Source: Solwaraspora sp. WMMA2056
GTDB taxonomy: Bacteria > Actinomycetota > Actinomycetes > Mycobacteriales > Micromonosporaceae
Direction of reading: 5' to 3'
DNA: 64,000 nucleotides
NCBI RefSeq assembly: GCF_030345095.1
Contig: NZ_CP128360.1
Coordinates: 3,720,001-3,784,000, forward strand
Below the pieces are notes generated by a model. That model saw only the letters and a program-made list of their open reading frames with translations, was not told the DNA's origin and did no database searches. Made by a program: the position numbers and the translations under genes. This document shows positions 25,412 through 58,203 of this stretch, one piece after another; position 1 is the first letter of the stretch; every line of letters starts with the position of its first letter.

Positions 25412-25729
25412 ATGCACCGGACCTTGATCGTCGCGCGGCTGCAGCCGGGGCACGCCGACCGGGTCGCCGAGGTGTTCGGCGAGTCGGACCGCACCGAACT
25501 GCCGCACCTGCTCGGGGTCCGCTCGCGCAGCCTGTTCACCTTCCACGACCTGTACTTCCACCTGATCGACTCCGATCAGGACCTGGGTCCGGGGCTGGCC
25601 CGGCACCGTGACCATCCACTGTTCACCGAGGTCAGTGACCGGCTGGCGGCGCACGTCAGCGCGTACGACCCGGGCTGGCGCGGCCCGGCGGACGCGATGG
25701 CCACCGAGTTCTACCGGTGGCGGCGGTGA
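25412..25729 (+). CDS. TcmI-type polyketide cyclase
   Basis: A 105-residue ferredoxin-fold cyclase of the TcmI family (usual length about 110). The sequence opens [21 protein letters not shown], continues with [16 protein letters not shown] and ends [11 protein letters not shown], all family hallmarks. TcmI closes the last rings of tetracenomycin-type and pentangular polyketides. ATG at 25412 follows GGAGGGACC. It is the first gene of the long core operon and its stop overlaps the KS-alpha GTG. Confidence 0.92.
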
Positions 25730-27033
25730 CCGCCGACGCGGCCCGGACCTCGGCGGGGACCGGCGACGCGCACCGGACCGCGGTCGTCACCGGGATCGGG
25801 GTGGTGGCGCCGGGCGGCATCGGCGTACCGGCCTTCTGGGATCTGCTCACCGCCGGCCGCAGCGCCACCGGCCCGATCACCCTGTTCGACCCGCAGGGAT
25901 TCCGGTCCCGCATCGCCGCCGAGTGCGAGTTCGACCCGGTCGCCGCCGGGCTGAGCCCCGAACAGGCCCGGAGGCTGGACCGCACCACCCAGTTCGCGCT
26001 GGTCGCGGCGGCCGAGGCGATGCGTGACAGCGGACTCGACTTCGCCGCCACCGACCCGTACCGGCTCGGCACCGTCATCGGCGGGGCGGTCGGCTGCACG
26101 ATCCGGCTGGAGGAGCAGTACAAGGCGGTCAGCAACCACGGCCGGGACTGGCTGGTCGACCACACGGCGGCCGGCGCGGACCTGTACGACTACCTGGTCC
26201 CCAGCTCCATCGCCGCCGAGGTCGCCTGGCAGTGCGGCGCGCAGGGGCCGGTTTCGCTGATCTCCACCGGCTGCACCTCCGGTCTGGACGCCGTCGGGCA
26301 CGCCGCCGCGCTGATCGTCGAGGGCAGCGCCGACGTGGTGGTGGCCGGCGCGTCCGACGCGCCGATCTCGCCGATCACCGTGGCCTGCTTCGACACCATC
26401 CGGGCCACCTCGGCCAACAACGCCGACCCCGGGCACGCCAGCCGCCCCTTCGACCGGCGACGCGACGGGTTCGTCCTCGGTGAAGGCGCGGCCGTGTTCG
26501 TCATCGAGGAGGCCGGCCACGCCCGCCGACGCGGCGCCGCCGGCTACTGCCGGGTCGCCGGGTTCGCCCGCCGGGCCAACGCGTACCACATGACCGGTCT
26601 GCGCCCCGACGGCCGCGAGATGGCCGACGCGATCCGCGTCGCGCTGGCCGGGGCCCGGCTCGACCCGACCGACATCGACTACGTCAACGCCCACGGCTCC
26701 GGTACGCGGCAGAACGACGTGCACGAGACGGCGGCCTTCAAACACAGTCTCGGCCAGCGGGCCTACCAGGTGCCGGTCAGCTCCATCAAGTCGATGGTGG
26801 GCCACTCCCTCGGCGCGATCGGCTCGATCGAGGTCGCGGCCTGTGCCCTGGCCCTGCGCCACCAGGTGGTGCCGCCGACGGCCAACCTGACCGAGCCCGA
26901 CCCGGACTGCGACCTGGACTACGTGCCGGTCACCGCACGCGACGCCCACCTCGACGCGGTGCTCAGCGTCGGCAGCGGATTCGGCGGTTTCCAGACCGCC
27001 GTGGTGCTCGACCGGACGGCGGCGCACCGGTGA
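25726..27033 (+). CDS. Type II PKS ketosynthase alpha (KS-alpha)
   Basis: A 435-residue ketosynthase that extends the poly-beta-keto chain with malonyl units. The catalytic Cys is residue 183 in [10 protein letters not shown], with His 322 in NAHGSGT and His 359 in [10 protein letters not shown]. All three are intact. The GTG at 25726 overlaps the cyclase stop; a GTG nine bases earlier is also possible. It forms a heterodimer with the chain-length factor encoded next. Sequence comparison with KS-alpha from tetracenomycin, pradimicin and benastatin clusters would place the product class. Confidence 0.97.
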
Positions 27034-28277
27034 GCGCCCCGACGCCCGGCGCCCTGACATCCGGCACCGCCGGCGGGCGGGCACTGGTGACCGGGATCGG
27101 CGTCGTCGCCCCCAACGGCACCGGGGTGCCGGCGTACTGGTCGGCCACCCTGGCCGGCAAGAGCGGCATCCGGCCGCTGCCGTCGGTGGGTGCCGACTAT
27201 CCGCTGCGGGTCGGCGGCGTCGCCGAGGACTTCGTCGCCGGCGCGCACCTGCCGCCCCGGCTGACCGCGCAGACCGACCGGTGGACCGCGTTCGGGCTGG
27301 CCGCCGCGACCGAGGCGTTCGCCGACGCCGGCATCGACCCGACGACCCTGCCCGAGTACGAGTTCGGTGTGGTCACCGGCAGCTCGTCCGGCGGCAACGA
27401 GTTCGGCCAGCGGGAGATCGCCCGGCTCTGGTCGCAGGGGCCGCAGTTCGTCGGCGCCTACCAGTCGATCGCCTGGTTCTACGCGGCGACCACCGGGCAG
27501 TTGTCCATCCGCTACGGCGCCCGGGGCCCGTGCGGGGTACTGGTCAGCGAACAGGCCGCCGGGCTGGACGCCCTCGCCGACGCCCGGCGGCTGCTGCGCG
27601 CCGGCAGCCGACTCGTGGTCTCCGGCGGGGCCGAGGCGCCGCTGTCGCCGTACGCCATCGTCTGCCAGCTGGCCAGCGGCCGGCTGGCCACCGGCGACGA
27701 CCCGCACCGCAGCTACCTGCCGTTCGCCGCCGACGCGGCCGGCTACGTGCCCGGCGAGGGCGGGGCGATCCTGCTGGTCGAACGGGAGGACTCGGCGCGT
27801 TCGCGCGGTGCCCGTGGGTACGCCGAGATCGCCGGCTGCGCCGCCACGTTCGACCCCCGGCCCGGCACCGGCGAGCCGGGCCTGCGCCGGGCGATCGAAG
27901 CGGCGCTGGCCGACGCCGGCCAGCGACCGGCCGACGTCGACGTGGTCTTCGCCGACGGCGCCGGGGTCCGCGAGGCCGACCGGCAGGAGGCCGCGGCGAT
28001 CGCCGCCGTGTTCGGTCCCGGCCGGGTGCCGGTGGCGGTGCCGAAGACGATGACCGGCCGGATGTACGCCGGTGGGGCCGCCCTCGACGTGGTGGCGGCG
28101 GTGCTGGCAATCCGGGACTCGGTCCTGCCGCCGGCGGTGGGGATCGGCGCGCCGGCCCCGGACTGTCCGCTCGACCTGGTCCTGGAGGTGCCCCGCCCGG
28201 CGCGGGTGCGGGTGGCGGTGGTGCTGGCCCGTGGCTACGGCGGGTTCAACGCCGCGCTGGTGGTCAGGGCGGTGTGA
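27030..28277 (+). CDS. Type II PKS chain-length factor (KS-beta)
   Basis: A 415-residue ketosynthase-fold protein. The active-site Cys is replaced by Gln 175 ([10 protein letters not shown]), the diagnostic KS-beta change that gives malonyl-ACP decarboxylation and sets chain length with KS-alpha. [19 protein letters not shown] and [12 protein letters not shown] are conserved in the C-terminal half. The GTG overlaps the KS-alpha stop by GTGA, so the pair is co-translated. Chain length cannot be read reliably from the sequence by eye. Confidence 0.96.
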
Positions 28278-28280
28278 CGA

Positions 28281-28302
28281 CCCTCCGCCGGCCGGCGGAG
28301 GG
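28281..28302. terminator. Perfect palindrome between CLF and ACP genes
   Basis: A perfect 22-base palindrome whose half is CCCTCCGCCGG starts four bases after the CLF stop and ends just before the ACP ribosome-binding site GGAAGGG. As RNA it forms a strong stem with almost no loop. It could be an attenuator, or an RNA-processing or 3'-stabilising stem that sets the ratio of ketosynthase to ACP. Confidence 0.55.
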
Positions 28303-28322
28303 CAGACGGAAGGGACGACCAG

Positions 28323-28586
28323 ATGCCCACGTTCACAGTGGACGACCTTGGTGCGCTGCTCGGTGAGGTGGCGGGGGAGGGCGCCGGACCCGGCCCGGCC
28401 GCCGCCGACACCAGCTACGCCGACCTCGGCTACGACTCGCTGGCGCTGCTGGAGGTCAGCGTCCGGGTCCGTCAGACGCTCGGCGTCGAGGTGCCGGAGG
28501 ACGCCGTCGCGGTCACCGCCACCCCGGCGCAGACGGTCGCCCAGATCAACGAGATCCTCGCCAACCCGCCGGTGAGCACGGCATGA
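28323..28586 (+). CDS. Type II PKS acyl carrier protein
   Basis: An 87-residue carrier protein; Ser 39 in DLGYDSLALLE takes the phosphopantetheine arm. It carries the growing polyketide between KS-alpha/beta, ketoreductase and cyclases. The segment SYADLGYDSLALLEVSVRV matches aromatic PKS ACPs. ATG at 28323 follows GGAAGGGACGACC. Its stop overlaps the aromatase start by ATGA. Confidence 0.96.
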   Translation: MPTFTVDDLGALLGEVAGEGAGPGPAAADTSYADLGYDSLALLEVSVRVRQTLGVEVPEDAVAVTATPAQTVAQINEILANPPVSTA

Positions 28587-38637: not shown

Positions 38638-39111
38638 ATGTCCACCGTCGAACCACCAGCCAGTCCACCGTCACCCCCTGTCGTGCACCGGCCGGTCGGT
38701 GCCGCCGACGTCACGGCGAACCGCCGGCGCGGCGGTGACCTGCGGGTACTGCTCGGTCCGGCGACCGTCGGCGCCACCGCCGGGTTCCTCGGTGTGGTCA
38801 CCCTGGCCCCCGGCGAGTACGTCTCCGAGCACTACCACCCGTACTCGGAGGAGTTCCTGTACGTCGTCTCCGGGTCGGTGGTGGTCCGCCTCGACGGCAC
38901 CGACGTGCCGGTCGACGCCGGGCAGGCGGTGTTCGTCCCGATCGGCGTACCGCACCGGGTCACCAACTCCAGCGACGCCCCGGCGGTCGCGACCTTCCAG
39001 CTCTGTCCGCTCGCGCCCCGACCCGAACTCGGCCATGTCGACACCGAACCGCAGCCGGGCGTCGGACCGACCCTGCAGGTCGGGCCGAGTCTGCCGGTCG
39101 GACCCCGGTGA
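38638..39111 (+). CDS. Cupin-domain polyketide cyclase, TcmJ-like
   Basis: A 157-residue single-cupin protein. The metal-binding motif 1 is EHYHPYSEEFLYVVSG and motif 2 is VFVPIGVPHRVTN. Cupins of this size (TcmJ, PdmK/PdmL-like) assist TcmI-type cyclases in folding pentangular or tetracenomycin frameworks. The tail after residue 140 has a short VGP-rich repeat. ATG at 38638 follows GGGGAGG. Its stop overlaps the next gene by GTGA. Confidence 0.88.
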   Translation: MSTVEPPASPPSPPVVHRPVGAADVTANRRRGGDLRVLLGPATVGATAGFLGVVTLAPGEYVSEHYHPYSEEFLYVVSGSVVVRLDGTDVPVDAGQAVFVPIGVPHRVTNSSDAPAVATFQLCPLAPRPELGHVDTEPQPGVGPTLQVGPSLPVGPR

Positions 39112-39716
39112 CCGGGTCGGCCACGGCGGGCGTGGCAGCCGCCCTCGCCGGCGATGGTCCGTTGTCAGGGCGCGTCACGCTGCTCACCGGGGCGCGGACC
39201 ACCCTTGGCGGGGCCGTCGCGGCGGGCCTGACCGCCGCCGGCGCCCAGGTGCGGGCCGTCGATCCGCATCCGGTCAGTGGCCTCGCCGACGCGGTCGCCC
39301 ACTGTCGAGTCGACGATCGCTTTCCGTACCTGCTTGTCCACCTCGTCGAGGTACCAACCGCCGGCACCGGCACGGCGGACGACCGGGTGCTCGCCACCGC
39401 CCGACGGGTCGGCCGGCAGGTCGCGGCCGCCGCAGCCGGCTGCGGCGGTGGTGGTGGCGGTGGCGGTGGCGGCGTGGTGTTCGTCGCGGTGCCGCCGGCC
39501 GGGGCGGGGCCCGACGCCGTCACCGAGGCCGGGCTGACCGCGCTGGCCCGTACCCTCGCCACCGAGTTCGGCCCGACCGGTGTCCGGGTCAACCAGGTCG
39601 CCGGTCCGGGCTGCGCCGACCGTCCCGACCAGGTCACCGCCGCCGTGCTCTTCCTGGCCAGCGACCGGGCCGCCGGCGTCACCGGGCAGACCCTGCGGCT
39701 CGGCGGTACGCCGTGA
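39108..39716 (+). CDS. Degenerate SDR-fold protein (no catalytic Tyr/Lys)
   Basis: A 202-residue protein with recognisable SDR start (VTLLTGARTTLGGAVAAGL) and end (GVRVNQVAGPG, AVLFLASDRAAGVTGQTLRLGG). The YxxxK segment expected before LARTLATEFG is replaced by AVTEAG, with neither Tyr nor Lys. The NNAG region is missing, and a run of ten Gly precedes the strand that normally carries the catalytic Ser. It is about 45 residues shorter than a classical SDR. Reading frame and ends are intact, so it looks like a repurposed, non-catalytic protein rather than a pseudogene. It is coupled by overlaps to the cupin and to another altered SDR. Confidence 0.85.
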   Translation: MTGSATAGVAAALAGDGPLSGRVTLLTGARTTLGGAVAAGLTAAGAQVRAVDPHPVSGLADAVAHCRVDDRFPYLLVHLVEVPTAGTGTADDRVLATARRVGRQVAAAAAGCGGGGGGGGGGVVFVAVPPAGAGPDAVTEAGLTALARTLATEFGPTGVRVNQVAGPGCADRPDQVTAAVLFLASDRAAGVTGQTLRLGGTP

Positions 39717-40453
39717 CGCCGCCGACCGCCGTTCGCTGTGCGGTCGTCACCGGCGGCACCCGGGGGGTCGGGCGCGCCACCAGCCTGGCGTTGGCCGGTG
39801 CCGGCGTCGCCGTCGTCGCCGTCTACCGGGGCGACGACGACGCCGCCGAGCGGCTCGCCGCCGCACCGGGCTGGGACGCCCGCCGCTGCCGTACGGTCCG
39901 CGCCGACCTGACCACCCCGGCCGGGCGCGAGGTGCTCTCCGCCGCCGTCCGCGACCAGCCGGGCGGGGTCGACCTGCTGGTGAACAACTTCGGCAGCTAC
40001 CGGCCGGCTCCGTTGGCGGCCAGCGACGAGCAGGAGATCAGCGACGGGCTGCACACCAACCTCACCGCGCAGCTGCTCGTCACCCGCGCGCTGCTCGGGT
40101 TGCTCACCGACGGCGGCGCGGTGGTCAACGTCGGTGCCGGGATGGCCGACCGTGGCCGACCCGGGCACGTGGTGTTCACCGCGGCCAAGGCCGGGCTCGC
40201 CGGCTTCACCCGGGCCCTGGCCAAGGAGCTGGCCCCCAGGTCGATCCGGGTGAACACCGTCGCCCCCGGCGTCGTCGTCACCGAACGGGGTCTCGACCTG
40301 CCACCCCCGGTACGTGCCGCGCTGCTGGCGGCGATCCCGCTGCGCCGGTTCGTCACCGCCACCGACGTCGCCGAGGTCGTGTGCTTCCTCGGTGACGCCC
40401 GATGCGCCGGTGCGATCACCGGCAGCACCATCAACGTCGACGGTGGACTTTGA
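39713..40453 (+). CDS. SDR-family protein with Phe/Ala in place of catalytic Tyr/Ser
   Basis: A 246-residue protein of normal SDR length with an intact NADP loop TGGTRGVGRA. In the active site, however, YxxxK has become FTAAK, and the catalytic Ser of VNVGS has become VNVGA. The intact ketoreductase at 29622 has VNVGSR and YTAAK at the same places, making the substitutions clear. NNAG is NNFG. It ends STINVDGGL. It probably binds cofactor and may fold, bind or cyclise the polyketide, or pair with the preceding degenerate SDR. GTG overlaps the upstream stop. Confidence 0.88.
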   Translation: MTPPTAVRCAVVTGGTRGVGRATSLALAGAGVAVVAVYRGDDDAAERLAAAPGWDARRCRTVRADLTTPAGREVLSAAVRDQPGGVDLLVNNFGSYRPAPLAASDEQEISDGLHTNLTAQLLVTRALLGLLTDGGAVVNVGAGMADRGRPGHVVFTAAKAGLAGFTRALAKELAPRSIRVNTVAPGVVVTERGLDLPPPVRAALLAAIPLRRFVTATDVAEVVCFLGDARCAGAITGSTINVDGGL

Positions 40454-46678: not shown

Positions 46679-47950
46679 CGCCGCCGACCGGCGCAGCCGG
46701 ACCCAGCCGGTGACGTTGCGTTGCATGGTGCGGGCCATGCCCAGCGCACCGGCGGGCACGTCGTCGGTGATCACCGAGCCGGCGGCGGTCTCCGCGCCGT
46801 CGCCGACCTCGACCGGTGCCACCAGGATCGTGCCGGCGCCGATGGAGACGCCGTCACCGATGCGGACCCGGCTCTTGACGCCACCGTTGAAGTTCGCCGG
46901 CCCGGACATGCTCGCCAGGTTGCAGCCGCGTCCGACGTCGGCGCTGAACAGTCCGGCCAGGTGCGGGACGCTGGTGCCGGCGCCGACCGTCGAGTCGGCG
47001 ATCTCCACGAACGCCCCGGCGCGGCAGTCGTCGCCGAGGCTGGCGCGGGAGCGCAGCCAGGCGTACGGCCCGACGTTGACCCGGTCACCGAGGTCGACGT
47101 CCTGACAGACCGCGTACCGGATCTCGCAGTCGGCACCGACCCGGCAGTCGTGCAGCGACACCCCGGGGCCGATCCGGCTGCCGGCGTCGACCGTGGTGTG
47201 GCCGGTCAGTCGGGTGCCGGCCAGTACGGTGACGCCGGGCGCGAGCTGGACCGTGGCGTCGATGGAGGTGGTCGCCGGGTCCTCCACGTACACGCCGCGT
47301 CGTAGCCAGCCGGCCACGATCCGGGCCTGGACGGCCCGGTGGGCCTCGGCCAGCTCCACCGGGTCGGTGGTGCGTAACGACTCGGTCGGGTGCAGGGTCA
47401 CGTCGTCGACCCGCACCCCGGCGGCGACCAGCTGGTGGCGTACGGCGGCGCAGGGTGTCTCGGCGGCGAGGTGGCCGGCGAGCCGGGCGACAGAGAGAGG
47501 GACGGGCCCGGCGAGGACCAGGCCGGCCGGTGCGTCGGGCGTGGCCGGCGGGGTCGGATCCCACCACGGTGCGGGGCGTCGCGCCCGCAGCAGCACCACG
47601 CGGCCGCCGCCGGTGCCGCCGGTGTCGTCGGTGACCCGGTCCACCGCCCAGGCCAGGGTGCCGGCCCCGATCAGCGGCGTCGCCGTGCCGATCAGCAGTA
47701 CCGGCCGGTCGCCGGGGCGCGGCGGTTTCGTGACCACCTCGGCGTCGAGACGGGCGAGGGTGTCCAGCAGCCAGTGGCCCGCCGGCCGCCCGGCCAGCAC
47801 CGCCTGCTCCGGTCCGTCCGGCACCGCCTGCTCCGGTCCGTCCGGCACCGCCTGCTCCGGTCCGTCCGGCACCGCCTGCTCCGGTCCGTCCGGCATTGCC
47901 TGGCTAGGCGCGCCGACGAGCACCGCGACCGGCCGGTGCCGGCCGCTCAC
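46637..47950 (-). CDS. GlmU-like left-handed beta-helix acyltransferase without the uridyltransferase domain
   Basis: A 437-residue protein. Residues about 190-430 are a hexapeptide left-handed beta-helix closely like the C-terminal acetyltransferase of GlmU (EIADSTVGAGTSVPHLAGLF, ANFNGGVKSRVRIGDGVSIG, LVAPVEVGDGAETAAGSVIT), including the His of NHL type in VPHLAG. The first 190 residues do not contain the nucleotidyltransferase motif LxxGxGTRMxS; they hold four copies of PDGPEQAV and a divergent region. So this is not a housekeeping GlmU but probably an acyltransferase acting on an amino sugar. GTG overlaps the PIG-L stop, so deacetylase and acyltransferase are co-translated. Confidence 0.85.
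   Translation of the reverse strand: MSGRHRPVAVLVGAPSQAMPDGPEQAVPDGPEQAVPDGPEQAVPDGPEQAVLAGRPAGHWLLDTLARLDAEVVTKPPRPGDRPVLLIGTATPLIGAGTLAWAVDRVTDDTGGTGGGRVVLLRARRPAPWWDPTPPATPDAPAGLVLAGPVPLSVARLAGHLAAETPCAAVRHQLVAAGVRVDDVTLHPTESLRTTDPVELAEAHRAVQARIVAGWLRRGVYVEDPATTSIDATVQLAPGVTVLAGTRLTGHTTVDAGSRIGPGVSLHDCRVGADCEIRYAVCQDVDLGDRVNVGPYAWLRSRASLGDDCRAGAFVEIADSTVGAGTSVPHLAGLFSADVGRGCNLASMSGPANFNGGVKSRVRIGDGVSIGAGTILVAPVEVGDGAETAAGSVITDDVPAGALGMARTMQRNVTGWVRLRRSAASAAGEAQRGGGHP
47801..47896 (-). repeat. 24-bp tandem repeat, four copies
   Basis: Four head-to-tail copies of a 24-base unit (CGCCTGCTCCGGTCCGTCCG plus GCAC) code for PDGPEQAV four times near the N terminus of the beta-helix protein. Copies are identical except for the final base. 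This is an in-frame, probably length-variable linker, not a CRISPR: there are no spacers. Confidence 0.92.
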
Positions 47951-48854: not shown

Positions 48855-49517
48855 CTACTGCACGGCGGGCCGCTGTGTCCCGTCGTACGGTGGCAGCAGC
48901 GCGGCGGCGATCGCCTTGTTGACCGCGTCGATGCGCGACACGGCACCCAGTTTGGCGAAGATGTTGCTCAGGTGGCGTTTGACGGTCGCCTCCGTCAGAT
49001 ACAACCGGGCGGCGATCTGGGCGTTGCTGAGTGCCTGCGCGGTCAGCGACAGCACGTCGATCTCCCGGGGGGAGAGCATCGCGGTCGATGTCGGCAGCTG
49101 GGCCAGGCTGCTGCGGGACACCGCGAGGGTGACGTGGTTGTCCTGGATGCAGGCGTTGTGGATCGCGGAGACGAGCTCCCGACGACTGACGCTCTTGAGC
49201 AGGTAGCCCCGGATGCCGAGGGAGAGCAGCCGCTGCAGCAACCGGGGTCCGTCGTACATGCTCAGGATGATGATCTCGGTTTCCGGGACGAGTTCACGCA
49301 ACGCGATCACCGTGTCGGTGACGTCGCCACCGGGGATCTCCACGTCGAGCAGGACCACCCGGGGCCGTTGCTGGGCCACCAGGGCGATCGCGTCGGCGCT
49401 GTTGCCGGCCTCACCGACCACCACCAGCCCCGGCTGGCTCTCCAGGATCTCGCGGAGCCCTTCCCTCATCAGCGCGTGATCGTCCACCAGGACCACCGTG
49501 ATCGGCTCTGGAGTCAC
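48855..49517 (-). CDS. NarL/LuxR-family response regulator
   Basis: A 220-residue two-component regulator. The receiver domain (1 to about 120) has acidic pocket VDDH and phospho-acceptor Asp 58 in VVLLDVE, with Lys in YLLKSVS. The LuxR-type HTH (about 145-205) reads LSPREIDVLSLTAQALSNAQ and TEATVKRHLSNIFAKLG. GTG overlaps the kinase stop by GTGA, so it is co-translated with its kinase. Its position inside the cluster suggests pathway-level control. Confidence 0.94.
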   Translation of the reverse strand: MTPEPITVVLVDDHALMREGLREILESQPGLVVVGEAGNSADAIALVAQQRPRVVLLDVEIPGGDVTDTVIALRELVPETEIIILSMYDGPRLLQRLLSLGIRGYLLKSVSRRELVSAIHNACIQDNHVTLAVSRSSLAQLPTSTAMLSPREIDVLSLTAQALSNAQIAARLYLTEATVKRHLSNIFAKLGAVSRIDAVNKAIAAALLPPYDGTQRPAVQ

Positions 49518-50587
49518 CCGGTGTCTCCCTCCACTGGCAGCCGTAGCTCGATGTGCGTCCCGCCGCCGATCCGGCTGATCAGCGACAGCGAGCCGCCCAG
49601 CAGGCTGGCCCGTTCCTTCATCGACAGCAGCCCGGTGCCCCGGTGTCCGGCGGCCGGGTCGAAACCTTCCCCGTCGTCGACCACGCTGGCCTGCAACCGG
49701 TCGGGTGCGAGGTCGATGCGGACCATGACGAGCTGCGCCCGCGCGTGGGTCACGGTGTTGCGCAGTGCCTCACGGACGATCAGGAAGGTCTCCTCGATCA
49801 GCGTGGCCGGCACCCAGCTCTCGTCGCCGTTGACCTGGATGTCGTGGATCAGCTCGGGCGTCGCCGTGCTGTCCAGGAACAGCCGCAGCGCCTTCTCCAA
49901 CCCGTGCACCGGCTCGACCAGTCGGAGCCCGGCGATCGTGTGCCGGACGGCCTCCAGGGTGCCGGTCAGCCCGTGCTGGGCGGCTCGTAGCCGGCTCAGT
50001 GCCCGGTCCTGGTCAGCGGCCCAGTAGATCTCGGACAGTTCGAGTTGGCGTTGCGCGACGCCGATGCCGTGTCCGATCCGGTCGTGCAGTTCGCGGCTGA
50101 TGTGGCGACGTTCCTCGATCTGGGCGCGGTGGATCCGGTTGAGCAGCACGCCGACGTAGGCGTCCGCGGCCACCCGCAGGGTGTGGGTGAGGATCTCGTG
50201 CAGGGTGAGCGCGGTCAGGATGAGACGGTCGGTGGCGTCTGGGCCGTCCACCGTCGCGGCGACCCGTCGTACCACTGTGGCGAACAGCAGGTTCGCGGCC
50301 CGCAGCGACTCGGTGGGCGAGGTGTTGGTGGCGGCCCGGTCGGCGCCGATCTCCCGGGCCAGCCCCGGCTGGACGACGGGCGTCGGGTGGCCGCCGACCT
50401 GGGCCGCGGTGCGCGCCAGGATGTCCCGGGCATGGGTCAGCACCTGCTTACGGGACAGGTCGTCCAGCAGTAATGCGCTACCCGCCCTTTCTAATGCCAC
50501 CTCGAAATCGCGCAGGATCGTGGGCGAGAGGGCCGTTATTTGGTCACTCAGGGTGGTCTGCGACGGCTCCTGGAGTGGCTCGCTCAC
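49514..50587 (-). CDS. Soluble NarL-type sensor histidine kinase with two TTA codons
   Basis: A 357-residue kinase with a HisKA_3 dimerisation domain (phospho-acceptor His 168 in RRHISRELHDRIGHG) and an HATPase region (REALRNTVTHARA, VDDGEGFDP, GTGLLSMKERASLLGGSL). No transmembrane helix is present, so the signal is probably cytoplasmic, sensed by the first 150 residues. Leu 32 and Leu 39 are both coded by TTA (50492-50494 and 50471-50473), very rare in this GC-rich genome. By Streptomyces precedent this would make translation depend on the bldA leucyl-tRNA and thus on development. GTG at 50587 follows GGAGGAAC. Confidence 0.93.
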   Translation of the reverse strand: MSEPLQEPSQTTLSDQITALSPTILRDFEVALERAGSALLLDDLSRKQVLTHARDILARTAAQVGGHPTPVVQPGLAREIGADRAATNTSPTESLRAANLLFATVVRRVAATVDGPDATDRLILTALTLHEILTHTLRVAADAYVGVLLNRIHRAQIEERRHISRELHDRIGHGIGVAQRQLELSEIYWAADQDRALSRLRAAQHGLTGTLEAVRHTIAGLRLVEPVHGLEKALRLFLDSTATPELIHDIQVNGDESWVPATLIEETFLIVREALRNTVTHARAQLVMVRIDLAPDRLQASVVDDGEGFDPAAGHRGTGLLSMKERASLLGGSLSLISRIGGGTHIELRLPVEGDTG

Positions 50588-50862
50588 AGTGTTCCTCCGG
50601 CATCCTCACTGGGGATCGAGGGTATCCGTAGAACGTGCCGTCCGTCTATCCGTCGGCCACGCATTTTCCGCTTTACGGACCTGGTCCACAGTGGCTGGCC
50701 GGATCGGGAACCGGACCCGGACCGATCCGTCATCGAGTGGTACGCCCGTTTTGTCGATCATCGGTGTCGGCGTGAAACGCGCTGGTAATGAGGTTCGCCG
50801 CATTACTGGTCATCAGTTGATGGATCAGCGCAGAAACGGCGCAGTACGCGGACCGGACGCCG
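50588..50862. other. 275-bp intergenic region with two hairpins
   Basis: There is no gene here. A hairpin at about 50784-50807 has GTAATG/CATTAC arms and a G-TTCG-C tetraloop; it lies past the end of the minus-strand UbiA gene and is probably its terminator. A second inverted repeat, CGGATCGG at 50700 with CCGATCCG at 50722, may be an operator or part of the kinase promoter. The tract is more AT-rich than its surroundings. Confidence 0.5.
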
Positions 50863-51780
50863 TCAGGCGAACGCGATCCCGACCGGTACCGCCCCGTGAG
50901 CGACGTACTGGGTGGTCATGAAGATCCGGTACGGCTGCCGCGTCGGCCCGGCCGGTCGGCGCCGCCGGCAGGTCACCGCGATCGCCACGGCCCCGCCGGC
51001 CAGGGCCGCCGCCGGCCAGCGCAGCACCGGATCCACCCCGACCGCCGCCGCGCCGAACGCGACGGCCACCAGGAGCGCGTTGACCGACACCCGTCGCCCA
51101 GCGGCCGGCACACCACGCAGCACCGCCGAGGTCCGTCGCCCGGTCGCCGCGTCACCGGCGACGTCGGACAGGTCCTTGGCCAGCGCGCCGACGAGACCCA
51201 TCCAACACGACATCGCGACGGCGAACACCAGCAGCGCGGGCGGCACGCCGCCGCCACCGGCCGCTACCGCCCCGGCGGTGAACGTCACCAGTCCGGCCAG
51301 TACCACGGTGGCCCCGGCGGCCACGCTCCACCGCTTCAGGCGAAGCGGCGGCGCGGAGTAGGCCCAGCCGAGCAGCAGCGCCAGGCCGACCAGGCCGAGC
51401 CAGGCCACACCGAGGACAGCGGCCCCGGCCACCGCAAGACCCGCCCAGGCCGTGGCCACCCCCGCCGCCACCGGCACCGGCAGTACGCCGCGGGCGATCG
51501 GCCGGCGGGAGCCGTTGACCCGGTCGCCGACCACATCGGTCACCCCGTCGAACAGGTAGACGCTGGCGGCGACGCAGAGCCAGGCGGCGAGCGCCACCGG
51601 CATCCGCCACCACGCGGCGGTGGTCTCCGGCGCGGCGACGGTGGCCAGCGCGCCGGCGACCAGGAAGCGCATCGTGTAGATCGCCAGTACGGCGGGCCTG
51701 GCCTCGATGACACACCAGCCCAGGTAGCGGCCCGTCATTCGCCAGCTTTGCCTGGACACTTCGACAGACGTCGTGGTCAT
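50863..51780 (-). CDS. UbiA-family membrane prenyltransferase
   Basis: A 305-residue polytopic protein with eight or nine hydrophobic helices. The first Asp-rich motif is FDGVTDVVGDRVNG (Asp 78, 82, 86), the second is KDLSDVAGD (Asp 203, 206, 210), and YSAPPLRLKRWS lies between them; these bind the Mg-prenyl diphosphate in UbiA enzymes. It would transfer an isoprenoid to an aromatic or other acceptor at the membrane. No prenyl diphosphate synthase is encoded nearby, so the donor would come from primary metabolism. ATG at 51780 lacks a strong ribosome-binding site. It is divergent from the SARP gene. Confidence 0.9.
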   Translation of the reverse strand: MTTTSVEVSRQSWRMTGRYLGWCVIEARPAVLAIYTMRFLVAGALATVAAPETTAAWWRMPVALAAWLCVAASVYLFDGVTDVVGDRVNGSRRPIARGVLPVPVAAGVATAWAGLAVAGAAVLGVAWLGLVGLALLLGWAYSAPPLRLKRWSVAAGATVVLAGLVTFTAGAVAAGGGGVPPALLVFAVAMSCWMGLVGALAKDLSDVAGDAATGRRTSAVLRGVPAAGRRVSVNALLVAVAFGAAAVGVDPVLRWPAAALAGGAVAIAVTCRRRRPAGPTRQPYRIFMTTQYVAHGAVPVGIAFA

Positions 51781-51934
51781 GGGTCGAGGATATGGTGCCC
51801 TGATTGGCCCGCATCAGAGGTGTACATCGAAGGTCGTATCCAATTCTGCACCCTGCTGTCGGTGCTGGGTGTATCGGATCGGGGTGGGCGGGTCCCCAGG
51901 TGCAAACTCGACGCCGGCTCTTGTTGTTCGAGTT

Positions 51935-51947
51935 GTAGGCAGCCTAC
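51935..51947. promoter_or_regulatory. Palindromic site before the SARP gene
   Basis: GTAGGCAGCCTAC is a perfect 13-base palindrome (6-bp arms around A), 61 bases before the SARP ATG, flanked by AGTT and TTTC. It suits a dimeric regulator, possibly the NarL-type regulator encoded at 48855. No gene is seen in 51781-52008. Confidence 0.45.
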
Positions 51948-52008
51948 TTTCCAGATCCCGGCGAAGTTTCCGTCGGATTGCGCTGCACAACCGATCGAGA
52001 GGAACGCG

Positions 52009-52812
52009 ATGCTGCATTTCCAGGTACTCGGCCCACTCGAGGTGTTCGACGACGACGGCACCGTCGTCACCCCGACCCCACCGAAGGTCGGCCGGGTCCT
52101 CGCCCTGCTTCTGCTGCGCGCCAACCAGGTGGTGTCGACCGACGCGATCATCGACGAGTTGTGGGGCGAGGATCCGCCGCCCAGCGCGGTCGGTACCGCC
52201 CAGACCTACATCTACCAGCTGCGCAAGTGCCTGGACCCCCGGATCCGTACCGGCGGGGAGTGGCTGCTCACCAAGCCGCCCGGCTATCTGATGCGGATCG
52301 CACCCAGCCAGCTGGACGCGACCACCTTCGAAGCCCTGTCCCGCCAGGGTCGGCAGATGCTGGAGCGGGGCCAACCGGAGCAGGCCGCGCCACTGTTGCG
52401 TCGCGCGCTCGAGCTGTGGCAGGGGCAGAGCCTGGCGAACCTGCGCCGGGGCGGACTACTGCAGGCACACGCCATCCGCCTCGAGGAGGACCGGATGCGC
52501 ACCCTGGAACTGCGGATTCAGGCCGACGCCGAACTCGGCCTGCACCGGCAGCTGATCGGGGAGATCCGGTCCCTGGTGGCCACCAATCCGCTCAACGAGT
52601 GGCTGTACGGCCAGCTGATGGTGGCGCTGGCCCGGACCGGCCGCCGGGGTGAGGCGCTGCAGACGTACCAGGATCTGCGCCGCGTGCTCGACCACCAGCT
52701 CGGCCTCACCCCGCAGCCCGAGCTGCAGCGGCTGCACCGTGAGCTGCTCAGCCACGGCGAACCCGCGATGAGCAGCACCTGGCTGTACCGCAGTGTGCTC
52801 TCGGCGGCCTGA
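52009..52812 (+). CDS. SARP-family (AfsR/BTAD) pathway-specific activator
   Basis: A 267-residue Streptomyces antibiotic regulatory protein type activator. The N-terminal winged helix (about 1-95) reads MLHFQVLGPLEVFDDDG, PKVGRVLALLLLRANQVVS, IIDELWGEDPPPSA and TYIYQLRKCL. A bacterial transcriptional activation domain follows (about 100-245). The small size without an ATPase is typical of cluster-situated SARPs. They bind heptamer direct repeats with an 11-base period near -35; such repeats occur before several cluster operons. ATG at 52009 follows GAGAGGAACG. Confidence 0.94.
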   Translation: MLHFQVLGPLEVFDDDGTVVTPTPPKVGRVLALLLLRANQVVSTDAIIDELWGEDPPPSAVGTAQTYIYQLRKCLDPRIRTGGEWLLTKPPGYLMRIAPSQLDATTFEALSRQGRQMLERGQPEQAAPLLRRALELWQGQSLANLRRGGLLQAHAIRLEEDRMRTLELRIQADAELGLHRQLIGEIRSLVATNPLNEWLYGQLMVALARTGRRGEALQTYQDLRRVLDHQLGLTPQPELQRLHRELLSHGEPAMSSTWLYRSVLSAA

Positions 52813-53326: not shown

Positions 53327-54361
53327 GTGCCGTCGACCTCGACGCCGACCCTCGACCCCGCTGACATCAAACGTCTGGGCAACGCCTTCTGCCACGCGAA
53401 GCTGCTGCTCACCGCCACCGAGCTCGGACTTTTCGCCGACCTGTCGAGCAACGGCCGGTCGACCGCCGACGAGATCGCCGCCCGGCTGCACCTGGCCGGC
53501 CGTGGCGCGGGCGACTTTCTCGACGCGCTCACCGTGCTCGGCCTGCTCGATCGGACCGCCGCCGGCTACGACCTGGCCGACGCGGCACGCCGGCACCTGG
53601 TCCCCGGCGGACCGGCCTTCCTCGGCGGCTTCCTCGACCGGGCCAACCAGGTGCTCTACCCGGCCTGGGGCAAGCTGGCCACCGCGTTGCGGACCGGGCG
53701 ACCGCAGACCCCGTCGGCGGGCGCGGGCGCGTTCGCGCAGATGCTCGCCGACCCGGTCCAGCGTGAGCGGTACCTGGGCATGATGGACGGGGCCAGCGGT
53801 CAACTCGCGCCCCACCTGGCCGCTGCCGTCGACTGGTCGGCGGTCTCCAGCGTGGTAGACGTCGGCGGTGCCCGGGGCAACCTGGCCGCGGCGTTGGTGA
53901 CGGCGCATCCGCACCTGTCGGCGACCGTGTTCGACCTGCCGGCGATGGCGCCGTCGTTCGCGGACCACATGCGGTCGCTGCGTCCGCCGACCGAGGTCCG
54001 GTTCGTCGGTGGTGATTTCTTCGTCGACCCGCTACCGACCGCCGACGTGCTGATCATCGGCCATGTCCTGCACAACTGGTCGCCGCCGCAACGGCAGACC
54101 CTGATCGCCCGGGCGTACGCCGCGCTGCCCCCCGGTGGCCTGCTGCTGGTCTACGACGCGATGCTCGACGACGAGCCGGCCGACCTGGCCCGGCTGCTGG
54201 TCAGCCTCAACATGCTCCTGGTCACCTCCGACGGTGCGGAGTACCGGGCGGCGGACGGCGAACAGTGGCTGCGCGAGGCCGGGTTCGCCGTACAGCAGCG
54301 CCGGTCACTCGGGAGCAGCGACACTCTGTTGGTCGCCCGCAGGCCCACCGCCGGCAGCTGA
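53327..54361 (+). CDS. O-methyltransferase family 2
   Basis: A 344-residue SAM-dependent O-methyltransferase. The N-terminal winged-helix dimerisation domain (AKLLLTATELGLFADLS, ADEIAARLHL) precedes the Rossmann domain with motif I VVDVGGARGNLA and the catalytic-base His segment HVLHNWSPPQ. This is the family of TcmN-C/TcmO-, CarB- and DmpM-type enzymes that methylate phenols of aromatic polyketides. GTG at 53327 follows AAAGGAG. Its last 57 bases overlap a convergent small frame. Confidence 0.93.
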   Translation: MPSTSTPTLDPADIKRLGNAFCHAKLLLTATELGLFADLSSNGRSTADEIAARLHLAGRGAGDFLDALTVLGLLDRTAAGYDLADAARRHLVPGGPAFLGGFLDRANQVLYPAWGKLATALRTGRPQTPSAGAGAFAQMLADPVQRERYLGMMDGASGQLAPHLAAAVDWSAVSSVVDVGGARGNLAAALVTAHPHLSATVFDLPAMAPSFADHMRSLRPPTEVRFVGGDFFVDPLPTADVLIIGHVLHNWSPPQRQTLIARAYAALPPGGLLLVYDAMLDDEPADLARLLVSLNMLLVTSDGAEYRAADGEQWLREAGFAVQQRRSLGSSDTLLVARRPTAGS

Positions 54362-54583
54362 CCCGATCCGGGTGCCCGGCGTCGGCCGTTCCCCGGCGGG
54401 CGCGGGGTCGGTGCCATCGGCCCCGGCGGACAGGGCGCCGTCCCAGTCCGCCGGGGGACCGGGCACGACCAGGTGCAGGTGGCCAAGCAGCGGCAGCAGC
54501 CGGGCGAGCGGGCCGGGGGACACCGGCGTGGTGGTGTCGTCGACCGACGGTACGCCGTCGGCGGGGTGCGGCAGGCGGTCCAT
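54305..54583 (-). CDS. Possible small hypothetical protein
   Basis: A 92-residue frame starts ATG at 54583, with GGAG about 13 bases before it and the AKR stop just upstream. It contains LARLLPLLGHLHLVVPGPPADW and is otherwise Pro/Gly/Ala-rich with low complexity. No family is recognised. The 3' end overlaps the convergent methyltransferase. It may be a real last gene of the minus operon or chance; codon pattern and conservation would decide. Confidence 0.35.
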   Translation of the reverse strand: MDRLPHPADGVPSVDDTTTPVSPGPLARLLPLLGHLHLVVPGPPADWDGALSAGADGTDPAPAGERPTPGTRIGSAAGGGPAGDQQSVAAPE

Positions 54584-54588
54584 GGTCG

Positions 54589-55662
54589 TCAGTCTCCGGC
54601 CCGGTCCTGGCTGTCGGGTCCAGCGTCTCTGGTGTCGGATCCAGCGTCTGCGCTGTCGGGTCCAGCGTCTGCGCTGTCGGGCCGGCAGCGGCAGTCGGTC
54701 CCGACCGGCTGCGGGCAGACCGCGTCGCGCGGGTCGGACACCGTGGCCAGGCGGGCCCGCTCGGCCGCGTCGAGCCGGACCGCTGCGGCGGCCAGGTTCA
54801 TCTCCAGGTGGGTCGGGTCCCGGGTGCCGGCCACCGGCAACACGTCGGGGCCCTGCGCCAGCAGCCAGGCCAGGGCGAGCCGACTCACCCCGACGTGCCG
54901 GCGGGTGGCCACCCGCTGCGCGGCGCCGACCATCCGCCGCGTACGGGCGAAGTTGTCCGGCCGGAACCGGGGGTCGGCGTGCTGGTATGCGTCGGGGGCC
55001 AGCTGGTCGGGGGAGTCCAGCCGCCCGGTGAGCAGACCGGCACCGAGCGGGCGGTACGCCGCGAACCCGATCCCCAGGGCCCGGGCGGCGGGTAGCAGTT
55101 CCGTCTCGGCGCAGCGGCCGAGCAGCGAGTACTCGGCGGCTACCAGCGCCAACGGGTGCACCGCGTGGGCACGCCGGAGCTGACCGACGCCGACGTGGGC
55201 GACGCCGAGGTGGCGTACCTTGCCGGCGGCCACCAGCGCGGCCATCGCCTGCACGCTCTCCTCGACCGGCACCCGGGGGTCGGCGCGGTCGAGGAGGTAC
55301 AGGTCCAGGTAGTCGGTGCCGAGCCGGCGCAGGGTCGTGTGGCAGGACCGGGTCACCGTCTCGGGGCGGGCGTCGACGTCGACCAGCCGCCCGCTCCGGG
55401 TGTAGCGGCCGCCGCTGCGGCTGGCCAGCAGGACCGCCGTACGGCGGCCGCGCAGCGCCCGGCCGACGACGGTCTCGACGTCCCCGCCGGTGGTCAGGTC
55501 GGTGGCGTCGACCAGGCTGGTGCCGAACTCCCGTAGCTGGCCGATCATCCCGTCGGCGACGGCCCGGTCGACCGGGCCACCGCAGCCCGCGGTGAAACTC
55601 ATCGCGTTCAGGGCGATGGGCGTGGCGACCAGGCCGGTGGCCCCGAATCGGCGTGGCTGCAC
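54589..55662 (-). CDS. Aldo/keto reductase-fold protein lacking the catalytic tetrad
   Basis: A 357-residue AKR TIM-barrel protein. Fold and cofactor segments are clear (MQPRRFGATGLVATPIALN, TLRRLGTDYLDLY, VPVEESVQAM, GKVRHLGVAHVG, LPVAGTRDPTHLEMN). Of the Asp-Tyr-Lys-His tetrad, Asp is kept in LVDATD, but Tyr is Thr (DLTTGG, for DVYGxG), Lys is Arg (LLASRSG, for IATKxG) and His is Asp (LYLLDRADP, for LYQLHRPDP). Ordinary reductase chemistry is therefore unlikely. The tail carries three PDSADAG-like repeats. It lies in a minus operon after the second carrier protein. Confidence 0.87.
   Translation of the reverse strand: MQPRRFGATGLVATPIALNAMSFTAGCGGPVDRAVADGMIGQLREFGTSLVDATDLTTGGDVETVVGRALRGRRTAVLLASRSGGRYTRSGRLVDVDARPETVTRSCHTTLRRLGTDYLDLYLLDRADPRVPVEESVQAMAALVAAGKVRHLGVAHVGVGQLRRAHAVHPLALVAAEYSLLGRCAETELLPAARALGIGFAAYRPLGAGLLTGRLDSPDQLAPDAYQHADPRFRPDNFARTRRMVGAAQRVATRRHVGVSRLALAWLLAQGPDVLPVAGTRDPTHLEMNLAAAAVRLDAAERARLATVSDPRDAVCPQPVGTDCRCRPDSADAGPDSADAGSDTRDAGPDSQDRAGD
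54612..54674 (-). repeat. 21-bp tandem repeat, three copies, in the AKR tail
   Basis: Three adjacent 21-base units of the form TGTCGGGTCCAGCGTCTGCG plus C encode PDSADAG-like heptapeptides at the AKR C terminus. The copies differ at a few bases. They form an acidic, probably disordered tail. Confidence 0.85.
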
Positions 55663-55674
55663 GGCGGGGCGGGT

Positions 55675-55965
55675 TCAGCCGGTCGGGCAGAGGTGCCGGG
55701 CGAGGTCGGCCAGGCTGTCGTGCTCGAACAACGCGGCGGCGGCGATCTCGATGCCGAGTTCCTCCTCCAGACCGGCGTGTACCTGCAACAGCTGCACCGA
55801 GTTGGCGGCGACGTCGGTGATCCGGCGCTCCGGTGGGATCGGTCCGGGGTCCGGTTCGCCGGCGTCCACCAGGATCCGGGCCAGCACCCGCTGCAGGGCC
55901 TGCAGGGTCTGCCGGTACCTGGCGCCGTCGGTCGCCGCCGGCTGGTCGTGGTCGTCGGCACGCAT
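55675..55965 (-). CDS. Second stand-alone acyl/peptidyl carrier protein
   Basis: A 96-residue carrier protein with the attachment Ser 56 in DVAANSVQLLQVHAGLEEEL. It differs from the PKS ACP at 28323 (ANS in place of GYDS), so it probably serves another chain. The fatty acyl-AMP ligase at 14827 is the obvious loading partner, as FAALs load carrier proteins. The gene lies between an AKR-fold and a glycosyltransferase gene in one minus operon. Confidence 0.87.
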   Translation of the reverse strand: MRADDHDQPAATDGARYRQTLQALQRVLARILVDAGEPDPGPIPPERRITDVAANSVQLLQVHAGLEEELGIEIAAAALFEHDSLADLARHLCPTG

Positions 55966-55984: not shown

Positions 55985-56824
55985 TCACTGGTGGCGGTAG
56001 TAGCTCCACAGGTCGTGGTACGGGATCGTGGTGCCCTCCCGGCGGGCCCGCGCCCATTCGCCGGCCCAGTGCAGCATCAGGGTGGGTGCCGCCGGCTCGA
56101 TGATCCGTCCGTTGTGCACGACGAAGGCCGGGTCGCCGGCCCACCGCTCGGCCGGCAGGTCCCAGGCGCCGGTGGTCGCGGCGATCGTGTAGAGGCTGGT
56201 GTAGGGGGCACCGGAGGTGACGATCAGATAGTTGAGGAAGGGCTGCTCGGCGCAGGTGAGCTCCATGTGGGCGGCCAGCGCGAGCGCCTCGGGCAGGCGG
56301 GCGGTGGCGTGCGCCAGGGACAGGTTGCCCCGGCGGGAGGCGATGAAGCCGGTGTTGGCGGCGAAGGCGACCTGTTCGTCGGTCAGCACGCCGACGTCGT
56401 GGATGCTGTCGCGCCACACCCATCTGCGGATCTCCGGTTGGTGTGAGTGTGACGTGACGAACGAGTAGTCGTCGAGGTAGCGGTAGACGAAGTGGACGTT
56501 GTGCAGGACCACCGTGTCGCAGTCGATGTAGACGAACTCGTCGTACGGTCCATGCCAGATCGCGAGCTTGCGGTACTGGCCGCTGGCTGCGCCATGGAAG
56601 GCGTACCCGATCTCGTCGCACCGGTCCAACACCGCATAATCATCGAAGATCTCAAATTCATATTGATGGCGGAGTGCGCGGAGCGCGTCGATGTCGCCGG
56701 CGAAGGGGACCAGGCACAGCGGGGTCCAGGGATGATAGGTCCGGAAGCTGTTCAGAAATGCCAGCGCCTGCTCCAGCACGCCGTCGTTGGCCAGGAAATA
56801 GACACCCCTGCGCGCCCCGGTCAC
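55985..56824 (-). CDS. GT-A glycosyltransferase, GT8-like
   Basis: A 279-residue protein opening RRGVYFLANDGVLEQALAFLNS, with TPLCLVPFAGDIDAL and the metal motif DEFVYIDCDTVVLHN (DxD as DCD). This pattern matches GT-A enzymes of the GT8/LgtC type. It ends in APTLMLHWAGEWARA. It may transfer a hexose or amino sugar from a UDP donor. GTG overlaps the GT2 stop by GTGA. The codons for EFEIFDDYAV (56638-56670) are unusually AT-rich, perhaps a trace of separate origin. Confidence 0.8.
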   Translation of the reverse strand: MTGARRGVYFLANDGVLEQALAFLNSFRTYHPWTPLCLVPFAGDIDALRALRHQYEFEIFDDYAVLDRCDEIGYAFHGAASGQYRKLAIWHGPYDEFVYIDCDTVVLHNVHFVYRYLDDYSFVTSHSHQPEIRRWVWRDSIHDVGVLTDEQVAFAANTGFIASRRGNLSLAHATARLPEALALAAHMELTCAEQPFLNYLIVTSGAPYTSLYTIAATTGAWDLPAERWAGDPAFVVHNGRIIEPAAPTLMLHWAGEWARARREGTTIPYHDLWSYYRHQ

Positions 56825-58203
56825 CGCTGCGCGCCCTGTCGGACGTCGACGGCGGAGGTCCGCTGCGGCGAGCGGGCGTCGGTGCCGTTGGCGGCGATCC
56901 GGTCCACCAGGGCGCAGTACTCGGCGGCGGCACCGGCCACCGCGAACGAGACCCCGACGGCCCGCATCCGTCGGTCGAACTCCGACGGCGGCACCGCCGG
57001 CTGGTCCGGGTCGGCGTCGCGGATCGGGTGCCACACCCGGCGGACCCGCTCCAACAGCGCCAGGTACTCGCCGGGCTGCTCGCCGCCGCGGGCCAGGATC
57101 TCCGCGGCGGGTCCGTCCGGCACCACCGGCACCGGGCGGGCATGGGTACGCAGTGCCTGTCGCACCTCGGCCAGCGCCGGCTGGCGTTCCGACGCGCCGG
57201 TGGCGATCCGTCGGTAGTCGACCGGCAACGCCGTCCAGTCGACGTCCCGGGTCGCCGCCTCGATCCGGGCGGCCAGGTCGCGCCAGGCCCGGCTCAGTGC
57301 CGTGCGGTCCAGCTCCACCAGCAGGCATCCGGTCAGTTCGCCGAGGCGTACCAGGTAGCCGAGCAACGCCGAACTGATCATCAGATACTCGTAGACGGCG
57401 AACGCGGCGCGCACCCGGGGGTCGGCGAACTCGGCGAACCGCCGGTAGGTGCGGAACTCGTCCCGGGTCCGCTCCCGGTACCAGTCCAGCGCGCGGTGGG
57501 TGACGACCCGGGCGCGGTTGCGCCGCAGCAGCAGTTCGGGTGCGCTGGCGCCGTAGCGCAGGTAGCGGTCGGTGATCTCGCCGATCTGCTCGGCGCAGCC
57601 GTGCATCACCGGCGGCGCGCCGGACAACCAGCCGATGCGGTGGCCGGCCTCGTGCAACGCGGCACCGAAGTCCGAGTCCTCGCCCGAGGTGTGCAGGTCC
57701 TCGCAGAAGCGCAGGTCCGGGCCGAGCCGGTCGCGCCGTACCCCGCAGTTGCCGGTGGTGAGCGTGTCGGCTTCGGTCTCGTCGACCGGGATCGCGTCGA
57801 ACAGCCGCAGATAGTCGACGAAGGCGCTGACCGGTCCGGACACCACGGTACGGATCGGTGCGCAGAGCGCCGTCCGGTCCGGGCGGGCGAGCGCCCGCGA
57901 CATGTCCACGCACCAGGACGGCGGCACCAGACAGTCGTCGTCGACGTACAGGACGGTGTCGTGGACCGCCGCGTCCAGTACGACGTTGCGGGCCGCCGCC
58001 ACGTTGCGCCGTTCGCGGTAGTGCACCCGTAGCCGGCCACCGGCGATCCGGTCCAGTTCCGGCAGTCGTGACCGGCCGTTGACGACCACCAGGACCTCTG
58101 CGGTCTCCCCGGCGGTCCGGGCGGCCCGCAGCGCCGCCCGGACGGTCCGGACGAGCGCGGCGGGGTCGTCGCCCCTGGTGGGTATCCCTACCGAGACCGT
58201 CAT
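56821..58203 (-). CDS. GT2-family glycosyltransferase with C-terminal extension
   Basis: A 460-residue protein. The GT-A part reads MTVSVGIPTRGDDPAALV, VLYVDDDCLVPPSW (DxD as DDD), TTGNCGVRRDRLGPD and SGEDSDFGAA. It is paralogous to the GT2 at 34003 across both the catalytic part and the roughly 220-residue helical extension. ATG at 58203 follows GAAAGGA. It is the first gene of the rightmost cluster operon (GT2, GT8-like, carrier protein, AKR-fold, small frame). Confidence 0.89.
   Translation of the reverse strand: MTVSVGIPTRGDDPAALVRTVRAALRAARTAGETAEVLVVVNGRSRLPELDRIAGGRLRVHYRERRNVAAARNVVLDAAVHDTVLYVDDDCLVPPSWCVDMSRALARPDRTALCAPIRTVVSGPVSAFVDYLRLFDAIPVDETEADTLTTGNCGVRRDRLGPDLRFCEDLHTSGEDSDFGAALHEAGHRIGWLSGAPPVMHGCAEQIGEITDRYLRYGASAPELLLRRNRARVVTHRALDWYRERTRDEFRTYRRFAEFADPRVRAAFAVYEYLMISSALLGYLVRLGELTGCLLVELDRTALSRAWRDLAARIEAATRDVDWTALPVDYRRIATGASERQPALAEVRQALRTHARPVPVVPDGPAAEILARGGEQPGEYLALLERVRRVWHPIRDADPDQPAVPPSEFDRRMRAVGVSFAVAGAAAEYCALVDRIAANGTDARSPQRTSAVDVRQGAQR

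Follow-up and report, generated by a model that had tools for sequence, protein, structure and literature searches.

A type II polyketide cluster encodes P0001, a protein of the aldo/keto reductase (AKR) fold that stands at the end of a degenerating AKR lineage newly recognised here. Operation of the canonical AKR mechanism is very unlikely, since three of the four tetrad residues are replaced, the ortholog is identical at these positions and the gene is under purifying selection. A loss of redox chemistry is plausible, and we give about an even chance to the reading that the AKR barrel has been repurposed for a non-redox step on, or the binding of, a pathway intermediate. The window, i.e., the whole stretch of DNA analysed, is 64,000 nucleotides long, and the features of the gene and protein within it are:

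54589..55662, minus strand: P0001, the AKR-fold protein; GTG start, 357 amino acids, core at about residues 1-312, PF00248 at 1.2e-47
54592..54681, minus strand: acidic, repeat-like C-terminal tail of P0001; pLDDT below 50 for residues 314-357
54820..54822, minus strand: Arg281, the retained basic residue of GTR (site table)
55138..55140, minus strand: Ala175, replacing the nicotinamide-binding Gln, a role taken from AKRtyl as described in PMC10923870
55195..55200, minus strand: Ala155-His156, replacing Ser-Glu at the nicotinamide-amide site; E156 in 54/54 core homologues and 13/13 other clade members
55288..55290, minus strand: Asp125, replacing the catalytic His; Asp in P0001 and its ortholog L010 only, Ala or Gly in other clade members
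55417..55419, minus strand: Arg82, replacing the catalytic Lys; Arg also in nine clade members and in L057
55492..55494, minus strand: Thr57, replacing the catalytic Tyr; Tyr in all 69 homologues tabulated from neither the clade nor the YRPARLDP group
55507..55509, minus strand: Asp52, the sole retained tetrad residue (alignments)

The open reading frame has a coding-like base composition, and its product scored 162.8 bits against PF00248, for which the curated cut-off is 24. The genome encodes 13 PF00248 proteins including P0001, all of which exceed this cut-off. Seven curated AKR equivalog models (NCBIfam) match P0001, none at its cut-off (best 125.2 bits vs. 550). An AlphaFold2 model built from a shallow alignment of eight rows (pLDDT 73.6, pTM 0.76) forms an AKR-type (alpha/beta)8 barrel, in which strands 49-52, 77-83, and 119-125 end at or beside D52, R82, and D125, matching the AKR barrel. 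A Foldseek search with this model returned AKR11A at 4.1e-22, and every row shown by Foldseek and VIA-align 2 was an AKR. The PF00248 match, the barrel model, and the structural match to perakine reductase (Z 34.0) bear out the claim of the first-pass annotation that the fold is kept. By fold and ancestry, P0001 is therefore a member of the AKR superfamily. In terms of mechanism, the label aldo/keto reductase is inappropriate, because Asp52 is all that remains of the Asp/Tyr/Lys/His tetrad of the enzymes.

Tetrad positions were set by alignment to the solved perakine reductase and to 88-91 AKR rows. These alignments give T57, R82, and D125 in place of Tyr, Lys, and His, with D52 retained, in agreement with the three changes initially read from the sequence. 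Misalignment of the tetrad was ruled out, given that the solved-structure alignment, the 88-91-row alignments, and the strand ends of the model concur. The full D/Y/K/H set is present in all 54 core homologues and all 15 more distant AKRs of the site table, a table that leaves out the own-genome AKRs L138 and L139 (tblastn gave no alignment), and the replacement in P0001 is thus not due to chance. In the four proteins of the YRPARLDP group, Ala stands at the His position, with Tyr and Lys retained (letters present in three of four). Conservation of the Thr, Arg, and Asp in orthologues had been proposed as a check, and the sister-species ortholog L010 indeed has the identical residues.

The two ends of the cofactor site differ. 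The nicotinamide-amide contacts of AKRs (Ser, Asn/Glu, Gln) are replaced by Ala155, His156, and Ala175, as placed by alignment and motif positions. In AKRtyl, PMC10923870 describes Ser160, Asn161, and Gln186 as holding the nicotinamide amide; by sequence place, these would correspond to Ser155, Glu156, and Gln175. At the adenosine end, G279-T280-R281, E287, and N289 are present, among them the basic residue after GT and the Asn of the adenosine-phosphate site, and Y203 is an aromatic at the stacking position. Arg281 is the basic residue of the NADP adenosine-phosphate site established for AKRs. The earlier statement that the NADP segment is kept therefore holds for the adenosine end (R281, N289) and fails at the nicotinamide end.

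Beyond these sites, the core-conserved glycine and loop positions G17, G19, D225, R227, and N241 are altered. P0001 keeps 64 of 98 core-conserved positions (34 altered, including the nicotinamide-amide contacts), compared to at least 90% in core members; the clade member L057 keeps 65/95, and the nine members with D/Y/R tetrads keep from 74/89 to 89/98. His156 is exclusive to the three sequences that lack the catalytic Tyr (P0001, L010, and L057) and is a candidate new acid/base. The first-pass annotation had allowed that a Tyr or His elsewhere in the pocket would speak against its reading; this is in part the case, as Glu156 has become His in exactly the Tyr-less sequences.

Relatives were sought in 300 genomes of the own family, 394 of the class, 392 of g70, 297 of f19, 35 of f20, and 150 of f3. 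Besides the ortholog, 14 further clade sequences were found (L056-L061, L100-L105, L107, and L132); L132 was not listed at the family-search threshold and was recovered later through UbiA. Clade members were present in at least 4/392 genomes of g70, at least 1/297 of f19, at least 0/35 of f20, and at least 2/150 of f3, counts that are lower bounds with 5-14 candidates per genome scored in most of those searches. Four members have D/Y/K/A tetrads (L060, L103, L104, and L132), nine have D/Y/R/(A or G) (L056, L058, L059, L061, L100, L101, L102, L105, and L107), L057 has D/H/R/G, and P0001 and L010 have D/T/R/D. In the nine D/Y/R members, Glu or Ala replaces Gln175 and position 203 is occupied by His or Cys; the Lys to Arg stage appears to have coincided with loss of both the Gln and the Tyr that stacks at the nicotinamide. 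Within the open-licence literature, no paper was recognised as describing an AKR clade with such a residue pattern, which is weak evidence of absence.

In a maximum-likelihood tree of 88 rows, P0001 and L010 join L057 (100/95) and then L056 and L059 (100/92), inside a 12-row clade of Arg sequences (100/99). P0001 thus nests with members that carry Arg82 and lack His125, the pattern of a stepwise-degenerate clade. Circularity through the pocket columns was rejected, as masking nine of them in a quick tree left the nesting identical (supports 90, 94, and 97). When L132 and two own-genome AKRs were added to the masked tree, the supports were 99/90, 100/94, and, for 13 rows including L132, 100/97; some deeper forks were weak (92/50, 97/76). 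Origin of the clade from the His-less YRPARLDP group had support of 38/64 in the masked tree. Parsimony on the tree with L132 gave one loss of Tyr, one loss of His, two changes at Lys, and four at Gln. The two changes at Lys82 arise because L132 retains Lys inside the Arg clade, implying reversal or misplacement. Together, the tetrads and the nesting indicate that loss of His was followed by that of Lys and finally by that of Tyr. Replacement of His and Lys took place earlier, in a lineage that spans several actinobacterial families, and is not peculiar to the present cluster; the changes confined to P0001 and its ortholog are Tyr to Thr, His to Asp, and Ser155 to Ala. Phe56, Arg82-Gly83, and Ser136 are among the residues that became newly fixed across the nine Arg sequences, and the pocket has therefore been rebuilt rather than merely eroded.

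Selection on the gene was estimated by comparison with a single close ortholog, L010 of the sister species. The dN/dS of the core was 0.23 over 312 codons (bootstrap 0.10-0.47; Fisher p 1e-4), with 19 synonymous differences over 271.8 sites and 11 nonsynonymous differences over 664.2 sites. The tail evolved faster (dN/dS 0.68; 38 codons), and the value for the whole gene was 0.34, compared to 0 to 0.70 among the other paired window genes (a range that excludes the P450 w16797, mispaired at the stretch boundary). Neither P0001 nor the sister-species copy contains a stop or frameshift, and a pseudogene was rejected on the core value. The gene has thus been kept under selection despite the lost residues, and so probably has a new job that is not ordinary carbonyl reduction.

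The surroundings of the gene include the following features:

25717..28586, plus strand: minimal type II PKS, comprising KS-alpha, chain length factor, and first acyl carrier protein (ACP)
39108..40453, plus strand: two degenerate SDRs, read from sequence without alignment
48855..51738, minus strand: response regulator, histidine kinase, and UbiA genes, found alongside the AKR in 6/16 genomes
55675..55965, minus strand: second carrier protein (ACP2); PF00550 at 1.3e-9, 12 bases upstream of the AKR, conserved in G002
55985..56824, minus strand: Npun_R2821/R2822-family protein, putatively glycosyltransferase-like; below the model cut-off; in the AKR operon
56821..58203, minus strand: family 2 glycosyltransferase; in the AKR operon

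The cluster also contains cyclases, SDRs, P450s, methyltransferases, and several glycosyltransferases, and is also conserved in another species of the genus, G002. A minus-strand run of glycosyltransferase, glycosyltransferase-like protein, and ACP2 leads into the AKR gene, with a gap of 12 bases after ACP2, which confirms the original placement of the AKR behind a second carrier-protein gene. Directly downstream of the AKR, a 92-residue open reading frame (54305-54583, minus strand) has a 92-residue counterpart in G002 (L063 1006-1284). A hexapeptide-repeat transferase at 46637-47896 (minus strand) carries a tandem PDGPEQAV repeat near its N-terminus that differs in G002. At 48855-52812, a SARP regulator is encoded with a UbiA-family membrane protein, a soluble histidine kinase, and a response regulator, a combination that recurs at the type II PKS loci of G007, G181, and G212; the G146 type I PKS locus likewise has UbiA, kinase, and regulator genes.

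Clade AKRs occur mostly in type II polyketide clusters. A KS-alpha gene of at least 60% identity lies within 30 kb of the clade AKR in 11 of 16 genomes (G000, G002, G007, G040, G181, G386, G546, G759, G1035, G1446, and G212), and none of the 12 other AKRs of the own genome is within 30 kb of KS-alpha. Where no KS-alpha was nearby, the AKR of G217 and of G079 is on a short contig, and that of G770 has aromatic-tailoring-type neighbours with no KS-alpha of at least 60% identity on the replicon. The orphan AKR of G718 (L104 9471-10397) is flanked by the genes that in G759 (L103) adjoin a full cluster, and is apparently a remnant left after cluster loss. In G146, an iterative PKS of domain order KS-AT-KR-DH, with a hotdog thioesterase after it, is near the AKR; from this domain order, we take the locus to be enediyne-type. 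In seven of 16 loci (L056, L059, L100, L101, L102, L105, and L107; Pfam check in L056), a two-domain polyketide-cyclase-like gene is the immediate divergent neighbour of the AKR, which suggests a functional pair. P0001 has no such divergent neighbour and is placed after ACP2 instead, an AKR-ACP pairing seen in its lineage only.

The first-pass annotation counted three reductase folds with damaged catalysis in this cluster, namely the AKR and two SDRs. Such damage can be read in all of them, in the SDRs from unaligned sequence, and their histories differ. The SDR at 39713-40453 (plus strand) reads as having Ala for Ser and Phe for Tyr (NVGAG, VFTAAK); its dN/dS of 0.23 indicates that it is maintained without the usual catalytic residues. 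The SDR-like product of 39108-39716 (plus strand) reads as truncated and glycine-rich, with a poly-glycine run and no Tyr/Lys. It is 69% identical to its G002 partner, compared to about 95% in most neighbours, and has a dN/dS of 0.70; it may be decaying or may act as a non-enzymatic partner for the SDR that follows. A third SDR (29622-30353) retains Ser/Tyr/Lys and looks intact. For the AKR, the first replacements arose in a lineage that predates this cluster.

How might P0001 act? With Tyr, Lys, and His gone, the AKR push-pull mechanism would be unavailable, and with Ser155 and Gln175 replaced the nicotinamide would be poorly held; together, these points lead us to prefer a non-redox function acting on a pathway intermediate. 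The reductase site appears to have been dismantled through change of His to Ala/Gly, then of Lys to Arg with loss of the Gln and stacking Tyr, and then of Tyr to Thr/His. P0001 would consequently lack push-pull hydride transfer and could bind a pathway intermediate in the mouth of its barrel, perhaps delivered by the ACP encoded just upstream. Asp52, Arg82, Asp125, and His156 would serve as binding or acid/base residues, and the protein might then carry out a cyclisation, isomerisation, or dehydration, or hold the intermediate for a partner. Three points count against a non-redox role on an ACP-delivered intermediate: R281, E287, N289, and Y203 are present and fit a cofactor-binding protein, SimC7 works without catalytic residues, and an ACP partner is confined to the lineage of P0001 among the loci seen.

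A broader proposal, which we put forward tentatively and regard as doubtful, is that the whole clade represents a new use of the AKR barrel, as non-redox cyclases, isomerases, or dehydratases of aromatic polyketide intermediates, with a rebuilt Asp52/Arg82/Asp125/His156 site in the most derived member and the substrate carried on the ACP of the adjacent gene. If so, living species preserve intermediate stages of the conversion. As these stages (His lost; His and Lys lost; His, Lys, and Tyr lost) occur in one biosynthetic context, the conversion could be tested with natural proteins rather than mutants. Meanwhile, the database label 'aldo/keto reductase' leads pathway proposals to draw a ketoreduction that P0001 probably cannot perform in the usual way.

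The strongest rival, itself unlikely, is reduction helped by the substrate: P0001 would still be a reductase, with NADPH bound and the proton donated by the substrate (a phenol, following the SimC7 example), by His156, or by Asp125. Aromatic polyketide substrates do carry phenols, the cofactor-site residues R281/E287/N289 and Y203 are present, and the new pocket His156 occurs only in the Tyr-less sequences. SimC7 offers a precedent, substrate-assisted catalysis being described in PMC5039031. Set against this, the nicotinamide-amide holders Ser155 and Gln175 are both Ala in P0001, and core-conserved G17, G19, D225, R227, and N241 are altered.

It is distinctly improbable that P0001 is a sensor or regulator that binds NADP(H) or the pathway product and acts with the UbiA protein, histidine kinase, and response regulator, somewhat as Kv-beta does. 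Six genomes (G000, G002, G007, G146, G181, and G212) do have UbiA, kinase, and regulator genes near the AKR; they comprise all five members of its own subclade and the type I PKS locus of G146. This set was nevertheless rejected as a constant partner of the AKR, being present in just six of 16 genomes; in the other 10 no UbiA relative was found near the AKR, one of them having a relative on another contig. Conversely, 10 further genomes of the UbiA search have UbiA relatives with no clade AKR listed in the family search, and Kv-beta itself retains a working tetrad.

A late sugar-modifying role is very improbable. In its favour, deoxysugar pathways use AKRs, glycosyltransferases are abundant in the cluster, two glycosyltransferase-like genes share the AKR operon, and several clade loci have genes read as deoxysugar genes. 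Against such a role, a search of the window genes found no relative of the neighbours' presumed 2,3-dehydratase, and among solved proteins perakine reductase matches best, MtmW far more weakly. That P0001 is a relic on its way out, with no present use, is scarcely credible: it has lost many core-conserved positions (64/98 kept vs. at least 90% in core members) and has a fast-evolving tail, but the core dN/dS is 0.23, neither species has a frameshift or stop, and the pocket residues are the same in both.

The repurposed, non-redox barrel that we favour can be set beside several known systems. Perakine reductase, which we take to be AKR13-type, is the best match of P0001 by solved sequence (PDB 3uyi, 3v0s; E 6.7e-41, 28-29% identity) and the top match by structure (Z 34.0, rmsd 2.3 over 276 residues); its aligned tetrad is Asp/Tyr/Lys/His, compared to Asp/Thr/Arg/Asp in P0001. 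The Kv-beta subunits of animal channels share the AKR fold (Z 32.8) and exemplify an AKR used for regulation with its tetrad kept. MtmW (PDB 6ovq) resembles P0001 in its AKR fold (Z 31.6) with a weaker sequence match (E 5.9e-20), and is, according to PMC7247220, a working side-chain ketoreductase of mithramycin, an AKR of a type II polyketide cluster. AKRtyl (AKR12D) likewise shares the fold (Z 32.7) and, unlike P0001, has a working tetrad; its Y53F mutant is described as inactive in PMC10923870. SimC7 is presented in PMC5039031 as a polyketide ketoreductase that lacks the catalytic triad and reduces by substrate-assisted catalysis. On that account, it is like P0001 in being a reductase fold of a polyketide cluster without catalytic residues, and unlike it in having an SDR fold and having been shown to reduce.
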